Source of the DNA: Natronorubrum texcoconense | Lineage (GTDB): Archaea > Halobacteriota > Halobacteria > Halobacteriales > Natrialbaceae | Assembly (NCBI RefSeq): GCF_900100335.1 | Contig: NZ_FNFE01000003.1 | Coordinates: forward strand, 248,001-312,000 | Reading direction: 5' to 3' | Length of the DNA stretch: 64,000 nt | In this document: positions 29,757 to 35,750 of the stretch, piece after piece | Numbering within the stretch: the stretch's first letter is position 1 | Layout of the letters: each line of letters opens with the position of its first letter | Made by a program: the position numbers and the translations under genes | The notes under the pieces: generated by a model | What the model was told of the DNA's origin: nothing | The model's input: only the letters and a program-made list of their open reading frames with translations | Databases searched by the model: none

Positions 29757-32700
29757 TTATCGGCTGAGAGCGGCCGCGACCCCGAACAGTACGACGCCGA
29801 GCACGACCGCGAGGGCACCGACGACGGCGTCTCCGGCGAAGACGAGCGTCCCACCGGCGACGAGTCCGGCACCGCCGCCACCGGCGGCCGCTGGGACACC
29901 GAGGTGCTGGACAGTACTCGAGTTCGATCGGCTCTCGACCGCCGCTCGAGACTGGTGTCGATTCCGTACCTCGTCCAGATCCGCGCGGAGGGCTTCGAGA
30001 TCCGTCTCCCGGGAGTCCGACGTCGCCCCGTCGACGGCCGACTCGAGGTCCTCGATCTCCGCCGCGAGCGAGTCCAGTCGAGCGTCGTGGCGCTCGAGGT
30101 CGGTCGTACGGCTCTCGAGTCGCTCCCCGTGATCGCTCGTCCGGTCGTCGAGCAGTTCGGTACGAGTCGCGACTCCGTCGAGTCGGTCCCTCACCTCGTC
30201 TACCGCACCTGCGAGATCGTCGACGCGCTCGGGCTCGCCGTCGGAATCGGTGGCTGCCGCTCGAAGCGAGGCGATCTCGGTCTCGAGCGACTCGACCGTT
30301 TCCGCAAGCGCTGTAACGTCGTTCTCGGAGACGGACGTCTCCTCGAGCGCCGCTACGCGCTCGTCGACGGTGGCCACACGCTCGACGAGGGTGTCGGTCG
30401 TTGTCTCGAGATTCCCGACCGCGTCGTCGAGATCCTCGAGTTCGGCGTCGACCGTCTCGGCGGTCGTCGCGACGTCCTCGAGTCGATGCTCGACGTCGGC
30501 GGACCGACTGTCGACGGTCTCGAGACGCGACTCGAACCGATCGGTTTGGCCCTCGACCTCCGCCCGAAGATCGGTGACGCCATCGTCGAGATCGTCCTCG
30601 AGCGCGTCGACACGATCTGTCAGCGTCGTCTCGACGTCCCCGATTCGTGTTTCCACTTCCTCGAGATCGGTCTCGAGCGTCCCGAGGTCGCCGCCGACGG
30701 AATCGACCTCGGCGGTGAGCGATTCGACCGTCTCTCGCGTGCCGGCGAGCGAGTCGGACAGTGCTTCGAGCGCGTCGTCGTCAACGGTCTCGTCGTCGAG
30801 TCGGTCGACGGCCGTTTCGAGGGCCTCGAGATCGACCATCGTTTCGTCGAGACGTGACTCGAGCGTCTCCTCGAACGCTTCGACCTCGTTCGTGAGCTCC
30901 GCGACGTCGCCGTCGATCGACTCGAGATCTGCTCCAAGATCGTCGACCGTCGTCTCGAGCGCCGTTTGCTCCTCGAGTTCGGCCACCGTCTCCGAGACGG
31001 CCGCCATCGAGTCGCCGAGTTCGACGAGTTCGGCCTCGAGCGACGCGAGTTCGGCTTTCACCTCGTCGACGCGGTCGCCGTCGGCCGCCGTCGACTCGAT
31101 CTCGTCGATCCTCTCCCGAGCGTCCTCGAGCCGGTTCTCGAGATCCTCGGCGCGATCGGATACGGACTGCCGAACGTCGGCCACCTCGGTTTCGACCGAT
31201 TCGACGTCGCCTTCAACCGCTTCGACGGTGTCCTCGAGCGCACCGACGTCGCTTCCGACGGTTTCGACGTCCGCCTCGACGACTTCGAGTCGTTCATCGG
31301 TCGACTCGAGGTCGTCTGCGACGGTTTCGACCTGGTCGGTCGTCGACTCGAGATCGGTTTCGACCGTCTCGACGCGGTCGTCCGTAGCCGTAAGTCGCTC
31401 GTCGACGCTATCGATCCGTTCGTCGACGCTCTCGAGTTCGGTACCGACGTCGTCGATCTCGTCCGAAATCGTCGTTTCGACGGCGTCGATGGCATCCTCG
31501 AGCCGCTCGCGTTCGTCCTCCGCCAGCTCCGTCTCCTCGTCGAGTCGGTCCGAGACGCCGGTGAGCTCGACCGACTGCTCCTCGAGCCGACCGGCGAGTC
31601 CTTTGGCCCGAGTCTCGAGTCGATCGACGTCCTCGTCGACGGCCTCGAGCGCGTCGTCGAGTTCCGAGACGGTCTCCGTGACTGCCTCGAGGTCGGCTGC
31701 GGAGGCGGTTTCGGCGTCCAGCGTCTCCAGGTCGGATTCGAGTGCCTCCAACTCCGTTCGCCGGTCCTCGAGTCGATCGTCGAGCCGCTCCGTTCGATCG
31801 GTTACCGTCTCGAGATCCGCGGTGAGATCGCCGATGCGGTCGCCGAGGGCCGCTCGTTCGTCCGCGGTGGTCTCCTCGATCGCCTCGAGAGTCTCTTCGA
31901 CGGACTCGAGGTCGTCCGCGATGTCCGCCTCGAGCGTCTCGATATCGTCGACGAGCGTCGACTCCACCCCCTCGACATCGTCTTCGAGCGCGTCGAAGGC
32001 CGCCGACAGCCCGTCGAGGTCGTCCCGAAGGTTACTCTCGAGTTCGTCGACGGTTCCCTCGCTCGCGTGCGTCTCGCTTTCGGCTTCGAGATCGCGCAGG
32101 TCGTCGGCGAACGCCTCGAGTCGCTCGTCGAGATCCGCGACGGACTCGGCGTCGGCCGCCCGTTCCTCGACGTAGTCGAGTTCCTCGAACGCGGACTCGA
32201 GGTCGGTACGGACCGACTGTATCTCCTCGTCGCGGGTGGCGAGGCGGTCGAACAGCTGATCGATGGCGTCGTTCGCCCGGTCGTGGCCCGTGCCACTCCC
32301 ACCGTCGACCGCGTCGTCGAACGCGAGCGTCGTTCGGCCGCCCGCGCCGCTCGCCTCGGCCGTGTCTATCCCGGGCCCGTCTCCGTCGGTCCCACTCCCG
32401 TTCGAACCGTTCTCCGACCACGTGACGTCCTCGTAGGCGTCGACGTCGTCCTCGGCGGCTGCGAGTGCCCCTCTGACCGCACTCGAAGCGGGATCGTCGG
32501 CCAGACGGACCCCGCGGACCGAGAACGGCAGCGGAGCGGCGTCGAACCGACCGCCGAGCAGGTACTCGAGTCCCTCGACGGTCCCCGACCCGGCGACCGC
32601 GATCGGGACGGCCAGCCCCTGCTGGACGTCGTTCTCGTCGGCTTCGGCCTCGATCGCGTCGACGACGTCGCCGATCAGCGCGTCGAACGCCTGTGCGAGC

Positions 32701-33404
32701 GCGCTCTCGATGTCGCCGGACGCCGCGTCGGGATCGAGCGCGAACTCCTCGAGCACGCTCGCAACCTGTGCGGACTCGTGGCCGGTATCGCCGGCCGCCC
32801 GCTGGACGACCCAGTCGCTCCCGGTTCCCACCGAGAACGCCAGCGCGGGGACGCCGTAGTAGGCCAGCGAGACGCTCGTCGTCTGCGAGCCGATACAGAT
32901 CCCGAGTCCGGTGTAGTTGTCGTCCGCGAACTGGTCGTAGACGACGGCGAAGCCCTTGCTGGTCGGCGTCGCGTCGACACCGAGATCGGCGAACACCGAG
33001 TCGACGGTGTCGCGGTGTGCGTCGGTCGGTTCAGCCGCGTCGACGACGGTTCCCGGCGTCGTATAACAAAGTCGGTCGTCGTCGGTATCGATCTCGAGCA
33101 CGTCGTCGACGAGCGCCTCGAGCGCCGGTTCGACGTACTCGTCGACGGTGAGAACGCCGTTCGAAAACAACGATTCGGGGGGTTCTCCCGTCGTGTCGGC
33201 GACGGCGAGAGCCGCTGACCCGACCGCGTAGGTGGTCTCGCCGTGTTGGACCAGTAGCTCCTCGTCCACCCCGCCGTCGACCGACTCGAGCGTCTCGTCG
33301 TCGGTCGAAACGACGACCGGCGGTACCGATTCGATCGCCACCCCATCGGCCGTCTCGGTGGCCGCGCGGAGTGCCCCAGGTCCGATATCGAGACCGTATC
33401 CCAT
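29757..33404 (-). CDS. actin/Hsp70-fold ATPase fused to a very long coiled coil with C-terminal membrane anchor
   Basis: A 1215-residue acidic protein. Residues 1-325 look like an ASKHA (actin/MreB/Hsp70) ATPase: phosphate-1 loop GLDIGPG (4-10), connect-1-like KGFAVVYD (150-157), phosphate-2 GICIGSQTTSVSL (168-180), and adenosine loop AVAGSGTVEGLEYLLGG (269-285). A disordered Gly/Ser/Asp linker (328-378) follows. About 770 residues of almost unbroken heptad coiled coil (about 380-1150) come next, rich in Asp, Glu, Leu and Val with short LES/VET/DDL modules. Residues 1165-1215 form two close hydrophobic segments, a membrane hairpin. I infer a filament- or scaffold-forming cytoskeletal protein tethered to the membrane. 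Salactin and volactin are known haloarchaeal actin homologues but lack such a coiled coil. The gene stands alone, divergent from a hypothetical gene. Confidence 0.85.
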   Translation of the reverse strand: MGYGLDIGPGALRAATETADGVAIESVPPVVVSTDDETLESVDGGVDEELLVQHGETTYAVGSAALAVADTTGEPPESLFSNGVLTVDEYVEPALEALVDDVLEIDTDDDRLCYTTPGTVVDAAEPTDAHRDTVDSVFADLGVDATPTSKGFAVVYDQFADDNYTGLGICIGSQTTSVSLAYYGVPALAFSVGTGSDWVVQRAAGDTGHESAQVASVLEEFALDPDAASGDIESALAQAFDALIGDVVDAIEAEADENDVQQGLAVPIAVAGSGTVEGLEYLLGGRFDAAPLPFSVRGVRLADDPASSAVRGALAAAEDDVDAYEDVTWSENGSNGSGTDGDGPGIDTAEASGAGGRTTLAFDDAVDGGSGTGHDRANDAIDQLFDRLATRDEEIQSVRTDLESAFEELDYVEERAADAESVADLDERLEAFADDLRDLEAESETHASEGTVDELESNLRDDLDGLSAAFDALEDDVEGVESTLVDDIETLEADIADDLESVEETLEAIEETTADERAALGDRIGDLTADLETVTDRTERLDDRLEDRRTELEALESDLETLDAETASAADLEAVTETVSELDDALEAVDEDVDRLETRAKGLAGRLEEQSVELTGVSDRLDEETELAEDERERLEDAIDAVETTISDEIDDVGTELESVDERIDSVDERLTATDDRVETVETDLESTTDQVETVADDLESTDERLEVVEADVETVGSDVGALEDTVEAVEGDVESVETEVADVRQSVSDRAEDLENRLEDARERIDEIESTAADGDRVDEVKAELASLEAELVELGDSMAAVSETVAELEEQTALETTVDDLGADLESIDGDVAELTNEVEAFEETLESRLDETMVDLEALETAVDRLDDETVDDDALEALSDSLAGTRETVESLTAEVDSVGGDLGTLETDLEEVETRIGDVETTLTDRVDALEDDLDDGVTDLRAEVEGQTDRFESRLETVDSRSADVEHRLEDVATTAETVDAELEDLDDAVGNLETTTDTLVERVATVDERVAALEETSVSENDVTALAETVESLETEIASLRAAATDSDGEPERVDDLAGAVDEVRDRLDGVATRTELLDDRTSDHGERLESRTTDLERHDARLDSLAAEIEDLESAVDGATSDSRETDLEALRADLDEVRNRHQSRAAVESRSNSSTVQHLGVPAAAGGGGAGLVAGGTLVFAGDAVVGALAVVLGVVLFGVAAALSR

Positions 33405-33560
33405 GGCATCGATGAGTCAGAGCGTCCTCTTTGAGCTTTGGTCTCGAATACCAGATGTGAAAATCAGCGCAGCGCCGACGCAGTGCGTGGAATCGGTCGA
33501 CCGGCTCCCGCGTTCACCTGCCGGCACCCAGTTTTTCGCCGTCGGTCACGACCGTCGACT

Positions 33561-34876: not shown

Positions 34877-35134
34877 TCACGCGCTTACTTTCGTCGCCGT
34901 CGCGTCGGGCGTCGGCTCCGACACGCGAACGTCGCCCTCGCCGTCGACTCGAACGGTGTAGCCGCAGTACTCGAACGCCACCGACGCGTCTACTCCCGGC
35001 GTCGCAAATAGCGACTCGAGCGCTTCCGTGTCGATGGCTTCGTGCAACGGGGACGCCAGTTGGGTGATATCGACTCCCTCTCGCGCGGCGACAGTCTCGG
35101 CGATCTCGAGGACGAGTTCGTTTTCTTGGACCAT
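34877..35134 (-). CDS. stand-alone HalOD1 output-domain protein
   Basis: An 85-residue protein equal to one HalOD1 domain: VAAREGVDITQLASPLHEAIDTEALESLF and VAFEYCGYTVRVDGEGDVRV. HalOD1 domains occur at the end of haloarchaeal signalling proteins and as small separate proteins; their role as output modules is inferred by the field. It starts at ATG 35134, since translation from an upstream ATG would add unrelated residues. It is divergent from the dCTP-deaminase-like gene. Confidence 0.85.
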   Translation of the reverse strand: MVQENELVLEIAETVAAREGVDITQLASPLHEAIDTEALESLFATPGVDASVAFEYCGYTVRVDGEGDVRVSEPTPDATATKVSA

Positions 35135-35294
35135 ACTCAGCGGGCCATTATCGTCCCATATAACAGTAGGGGATCGTATTCTGACGGGCGACAGACGCCC
35201 GTCAGACGTTCGGTAGACGCGTGGAACACATTGCCTTCGCGCCGGCCCGTCGAAGCCATCCTTTTTGCCGTTCGAACGCGTCAATGAGACCGAC

Positions 35295-35750
35295 ATGTCA
35301 GCCGCAAACGCGCTCGCCGAGGTCGTCGACAACCTCGTCTACGAATCGGTACAGGTCCACGAGCACGGCGTCGATCTGACCGTCGGCGCGATCTACGAGG
35401 TCGTCGGTCCCGGCCGACTCGACTTCGGCGGTGACGAACTCGAGGACGCGGAGCTCGAACCGGTGTCCACCGAACTCCGCAATCCGGACGACGAGTACGG
35501 CTGGTGGGATCTCGAGGGCGGCCAGTACGTGATCCAGCACAACGAGTTTCTGACTGACCTCGAGGAGCCGGTCCAGCTCCAGCCGCGAAACGAACTCCTC
35601 GCTCGCGGCGGTTCGCATCCGTCGGTACTGGTAGCGTCACACCTCCCGTTGATGCCGCTAACCGTTGCTGAGGGCGGATTGCGGATCAAGGAGAACGCAC
35701 GGGTGTCGACGCTGGTGTGGTCTGGCGAGCGGTCGCTCGACACGGAGTAA
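35295..35750 (+). CDS. dCTP deaminase/dUTPase-family protein
   Basis: A 151-residue member of the trimeric dUTPase/dCTP-deaminase fold. VQVHEHGVDLTVGAIYEV holds the dCTP-deaminase-like substrate strand, and LARGGSHPSVLVASHLPLMPL corresponds to the region that forms the active site between subunits. It is short (typical archaeal dCTP deaminases have about 200 residues), so it may be a paralogue with a nucleotide-binding or dUTPase role. The start at 35295 matches family position. It is monocistronic. Confidence 0.75.
   Translation: MSAANALAEVVDNLVYESVQVHEHGVDLTVGAIYEVVGPGRLDFGGDELEDAELEPVSTELRNPDDEYGWWDLEGGQYVIQHNEFLTDLEEPVQLQPRNELLARGGSHPSVLVASHLPLMPLTVAEGGLRIKENARVSTLVWSGERSLDTE

Follow-up and report, generated by a model that had tools for sequence, protein, structure and literature searches.

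A tailed paralogue of volactin with a degenerate nucleotide site, a coiled-coil stalk and a predicted membrane anchor in Natronorubrum texcoconense

The window, a stretch of 64,000 nucleotides from the genome of Natronorubrum texcoconense, contains a gene encoding an N-terminal actin-fold domain, a linker, a long coiled coil and a hydrophobic C-terminus (Table 1). The coordinates, strand and length of the reading frame, including its ATG start, agreed with those given in an earlier note made from the letters of the window. A chance or antisense reading frame was ruled out by the 52 complete orthologues and by dN/dS values well below 1. The gene is solitary: a convergent pair of MFS and rubrerythrin-like genes lies on one side and a MOSC gene on the other, and this order is shared by many relatives. 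No operon partners were found across the loci, where the recurrent neighbours (MFS transporter, rubrerythrin-like Zn ribbon, MOSC, SHOCT, and HAD) look functionally unrelated. In a genome of the same genus (G149, locus L210), the gene is cleanly absent, with only 75 bp between the MOSC gene and the rubrerythrin-like gene; thus, the gene is dispensable, and its product would be an accessory organiser rather than an essential part. Two genes upstream of the tailed volactin, at positions 34877-35332 of the reverse strand, a HalOD1-domain protein is encoded whose match to the model of the disk-determining factor DdfA stayed below the threshold (60.7 bits against a cut-off of 70) and which had no homologue in the same place at the other loci.

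Table 1. Features of the tailed volactin gene and of its upstream region in the window.
Feature	Position	Strand	Basis
Whole gene, tailed volactin paralogue, 1215 aa	29757..33404, stop codon included	-	ATG start; plan shared by 52 complete orthologues of the family
Actin-fold (pseudo-volactin) domain, aa 1-323	32436..33404	-	PF25216, E=8.7e-123; AlphaFold2 pLDDT 91.6; Foldseek MamK/MreB; degenerate nucleotide site
Acidic, Gly/Ser-rich linker, ~aa 324-385	32250..32435	-	Sequence; aa 331-385 without heptad periodicity
Coiled-coil stalk, ~aa 386-1161	29922..32249	-	Period 3.50, z ~30; aa 1057-1161 modelled as a single helix
Gly-rich hydrophobic segment (GGGGAGLVAGG), ~aa 1169-1190, possible first transmembrane segment	29835..29900	-	6 invariant residues in 40 sequences; low model confidence
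C-terminal transmembrane helix, aa 1193-1214	29763..29828	-	Kyte-Doolittle 19-residue mean 2.71; helix, pLDDT ~87-89
Conserved upstream element, -60 to -22, ATTTTCACATCTGGTATTCG plus CCAAAGCTCAAAGAGG, promoter-like	33426..33464	-	45/52 loci at offset -60 or -59

Upstream of the start codon, the motif ATTTTCASWTCTGGTAYTCG is followed by a CCAAA-rich part; in the window this copy lies at 33445-33464 of the reverse strand. The element has a single exact copy in the genome, in addition to two other matches with three mismatches, and none was expected by chance in the window. Among four genomes without the long-form gene, it was absent from three and represented in one by a match with three mismatches. 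The genome search revealed no regulon sharing the element. An N-terminal coding extension was ruled out by an in-frame TGA in the window copy and by substitutions that were not codon-like. The element looks like an activator site combined with BRE/TATA elements of a putative leaderless promoter.

The actin family of the N-domain has a name already, Volactin (PF25216): residues 1-317 matched positions 1-321 of the Pfam model with 410 bits against a cut-off of 35. The AlphaFold2 model of residues 1-330, obtained with 57 homologues, had a two-domain actin fold with a pTM of 0.91, and the nearest solved folds found by Foldseek were MamK (5ljv, the best match, E=2e-13) and MreB, with E-values of ~1e-12 to 1e-13 and TM-scores of 0.64-0.67. 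Actins ranked after these, and adaptor-type actin folds such as PilM were also reached. The actin-superfamily fold that the earlier note had read in the first ~325 residues was thus confirmed by the profile match, by the structure prediction that it had suggested and by the fold comparison. A search of the PDB with the N-domain sequence alone gave no match, and the N-domain profile gave only a weak partial match to FtsA. Neither Hsp70 nor MreB proper was supported as the identity of the protein, the curated match being Volactin and the identity to MamK and MreB being below 20%; moreover, the catalytic motifs are intact in MreB and MamK, and neither has a coiled-coil stalk with a terminal membrane helix.

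The genome of Natronorubrum texcoconense carries two volactin-family genes, one for a canonical volactin of 343 aa (G000:C4:74021-74983) and one for the tailed protein, which is therefore a volactin paralogue with a tail. By gene it is not an orthologue of VolA: it falls into a clade of its own (support 99/96) beside the canonical gene, and with its size, coiled coil and membrane segment it lies outside the definition of volactin as a protein of ~343 aa with the actin domain only. Compared with Volactin (VolA, HVO_2015), with which it shares the actin-fold family across the 321-position model and nests against salactin, the long form is ~33% identical, has replaced the nucleotide-site residues, is longer by 890 residues that make up the linker, the coiled coil and the membrane anchor, evolves fast and has its own locus and promoter-like element. 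The canonical and long genes are often ~50-90 kb apart, and ~206 kb apart in Natronorubrum texcoconense; such proximity may go back to the duplication of a region. Directly upstream of canonical volactin, 38 of 40 loci (e.g., L001:500-1402) encode DUF7139 (PF23600), a protein with hydrophobic N-terminal segments and a candidate for a general partner of volactin or for its membrane anchor. At one locus (L146, genome G060), an apparent in-frame deletion has joined the beginning of DUF7139 to the C-terminal portion of canonical volactin, and that genome gave no intact volactin match.

The nucleotide-binding motifs differed between the two forms. In the 31 canonical volactins, the phosphate-1 DxGTxN motif, the connect-1 Glu, the phosphate-2 GxG, the Lys of the adenine helix (IKE) and the GG of the adenosine loop were all invariant. 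In the long forms, by contrast, the phosphate-1 Asn and the IKE Lys were lost in 52 of 52 sequences, the connect-1 Glu was replaced by K, T, R, Q, S, or A in all 52, and the second Gly of GxG was lost in 50; the adenosine loop was one residue shorter, its first Gly being Ala in 38. The connect-1 Glu is catalytic in MreB. Its equivalence to volactin E152 comes from reading the sequences without gaps; in the MAFFT register its counterpart is E148, a residue that is also lost and is Thr in 94% of the long forms. The motifs seen by the earlier note are therefore alignable and, at the same time, degenerate, and its label of an ATPase is not supported, given that residues kept by canonical volactin are replaced throughout the orthologues. 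The loss of these nucleotide-site residues does not amount to gene decay, because pairwise dN/dS values of 0.19-0.30 indicate purifying selection on the N-domain. The tailed volactin apparently no longer has the residues for ATP hydrolysis and has kept the actin fold.

It is improbable, in our view, that the head is still an ATP-binding actin or ATPase with an unusual site that forms dynamic, membrane-attached filaments of its own. The fold is intact and modelled at high confidence, the phosphate-1 Asp (49/52) and the phosphate-2 Thr (51/52) are kept, and the long copies of another family (f7) retain a GxG-like phosphate-2 motif. In addition, canonical volactin itself has Ser at the position of the phosphate-2 Asp of MreB; therefore, an unusual site need not exclude a nucleotide, a point that also weighs against the nucleotide-independent reading preferred below. 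However, Glu, Lys, Asn, and GxG were lost at sites that are invariant in volactin, and the variety of the Glu replacements looks like a release of constraint.

The tail behaved as a long coiled coil. Hydrophobic periodicity over aa 386-1160 peaked at 3.50 residues, with a z-score of ~30 against shuffled sequences and one proline in 775 residues, whereas the N-domain gave a z-score of ~0. The ~770-residue coiled coil of the earlier note, as well as its remark that the known haloarchaeal actins lack such a tail, which is true of the experimentally known volactin and salactin, was thereby upheld. The same periodicity was found in all 57 complete homologues (z 9-38), although their lengths range from 575 to 1263 aa, so that a spacer role for the stalk is more probable than that of an exact ruler; at 0.15 nm per residue, its full extension would be ~115 nm. 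Matches of the tail to SMC and Rad50 were far below the curated cut-offs and were due to coiled-coil composition. In the AlphaFold2 model, aa 1057-1161 formed a continuous helix. Conservation along the tail was highest in the last ~45 residues, with the motif GGGGAGxVAGG and the final hydrophobic helix, and a comparable Kyte-Doolittle peak of the final segment was present in all orthologues. Hence, both C-terminal hydrophobic segments described previously exist and are conserved among the homologues. As for the membrane hairpin assigned to them, the last segment is a confident helix, whereas the Gly-rich first segment was modelled at low confidence (pLDDT ~47-60), so that a hairpin is likely, and the C-terminus may alternatively be a tail anchor with a single span.

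The distribution of the long form was determined in 292 genomes of Halobacteria, 74 of which belong to the family of the window, Natrialbaceae. The long form was present in 53 of these 74 genomes and complete in the sequence examined in 52. Two further families, f7 (three genomes) and f10 (two genomes), had more diverged long forms that are built in the same three parts and measure 775-878 aa when counted from the probable start. In a separate collection, named relatives included Natronorubrum, Natrinema, Haloterrigena, Natrialba, Halovivax, Halopiger, Halobiforma, Haloarchaeobius, Halorubellus, as well as others; the majority are Natrialbaceae. Canonical volactin has a wider range and extends to further lineages of the phylum, where it is one short gene; it is almost invariant, and the long form is fast-evolving. 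On the phylogenetic tree, the canonical forms, the long forms of Natrialbaceae and those of f7 and f10 made up three clades inside volactin, and the side uniting volactin with the long forms was separated from salactin with a support of 100/100. A single origin of all long forms was not rejected (p-AU 0.37); the tail may have arisen once or independently in each of the three families.

Salactin as the identity of the protein was ruled out by this tree and by the absence of any match to its profile (PF25229) in the whole genome of Natronorubrum texcoconense. Salactin, known from Halobacterium salinarum, is likewise a haloarchaeal actin-fold protein; it belongs to another Pfam family, is ~18% identical to the long form and has ~350 aa without a coiled-coil tail. 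It was found in 140 of the 292 Halobacteria genomes and in none of the 58 with a long form, and it was absent from every sampled genome of Natrialbaceae, f7, and f10; no other family yielded a tailed volactin. The control search also matched salactin in Haloferax volcanii, although PMC7617734 names volactin as the sole identified actin homologue of this species. The mutual exclusion could mean that the long form replaces salactin as a membrane-anchored partner in chromosome partitioning, acquired in a lineage that had lost salactin, whose filaments grow from the poles and influence DNA distribution (PMC10746226). We consider this very unlikely: the pattern could reflect one loss in one clade, 21 of the 74 Natrialbaceae genomes have neither protein, no partitioning genes adjoin the long-form gene at its locus, and the long form has a degenerate version of the nucleotide site on which dynamic instability depends.

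The best class of explanation for the tailed volactin is, we infer, a membrane-tethered cytoskeletal scaffold. The specific reading that we prefer, and that we hold to have about an even chance of being right, is a largely nucleotide-independent, membrane-tethered pseudo-actin paralogue that binds or organises canonical volactin filaments. In addition to the family assignment of the N-domain, the site losses under purifying selection, the coiled coil with its C-terminal helix and the dispensability seen in G149, it is supported by co-occurrence, as none of the 58 long-form genomes lacked canonical volactin; this co-occurrence is confounded by shared ancestry, because all sampled genomes of the three families have canonical volactin. 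It is also supported by the difference between the two domains of the fold: with subdomain borders set by hand from predicted secondary structure, long-form domain II was 39% identical to canonical volactin and domain I 27%. This bias was absent when salactin or MreB was compared with volactin, and it was weak in the f7 and f10 copies, which counts against the reading. Domain II provides the main longitudinal contacts of actin-like filaments, and its retained similarity is a weak hint that the binding of volactin subunits may have been kept. Mechanistically, the coiled coil would assemble the protein into a homo-oligomer projecting from the cytoplasmic face of the membrane; the pseudo-volactin heads would bind canonical volactin through the better-preserved surfaces of domain II, and the bound heads would cap, nucleate or bundle filament ends at the membrane.

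In Haloferax volcanii, volactin is required for the timely transition from rod to disk and forms dynamic filaments whose tips touch the membrane (PMC10869688); a membrane partner for volactin is therefore to be expected. In the accessible volactin literature, with its limited coverage of subscription papers and preprints, no description of a tailed or membrane-bound volactin paralogue was found, nor was a membrane tether or nucleator of volactin described. At the same time, volactin of Haloferax volcanii reaches the membrane although these accessible sources report no such paralogue there, and DUF7139, the regular neighbour of canonical volactin, may serve as its general partner; both points weigh against the tailed protein being an organiser of volactin filaments.

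A minority possibility, to which we assign about one chance in four, is that the protein is an independent membrane scaffold, in which the head polymerises without ATP turnover or acts as an adaptor, as do the actin folds of FtsA and PilM, and the coiled coil forms an envelope skeleton in which canonical volactin is not involved. The separate locus with its promoter-like element, the strong divergence from volactin surfaces at 33% identity and the Foldseek matches to adaptor-type folds are consistent with this. However, a long form without canonical volactin was found in no genome, and domain II was preferentially retained towards volactin.

Taken further, the organiser of volactin filaments could be a duplicated actin that no longer turns over nucleotide and serves as a membrane-anchored nucleator or cap, with a stalk of ~100 nm, of its own parental filament, an idea that we put forward tentatively. 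In the way it would work, it may be compared with RodZ, a membrane protein with a cytoplasmic head and an extended part that is tied to an actin homologue; the head of RodZ is a helix-turn-helix whereas that of the long form is an actin fold, and no sequence relation is claimed. The resemblance to the end-capping actin-related proteins of dynactin likewise concerns the proposed role only. If true, such a nucleator or cap would give archaea their own version of the way in which actin and actin-related proteins share out tasks.

Volactin is the actin with which haloarchaea change shape and become multicellular under compression, and a conserved, membrane-anchored, stalked paralogue is a concrete and deletable candidate for its partner. 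If the proposal is correct, the tailed volactin would represent a non-eukaryotic case of a duplicated actin that became a non-cycling accessory to the original.
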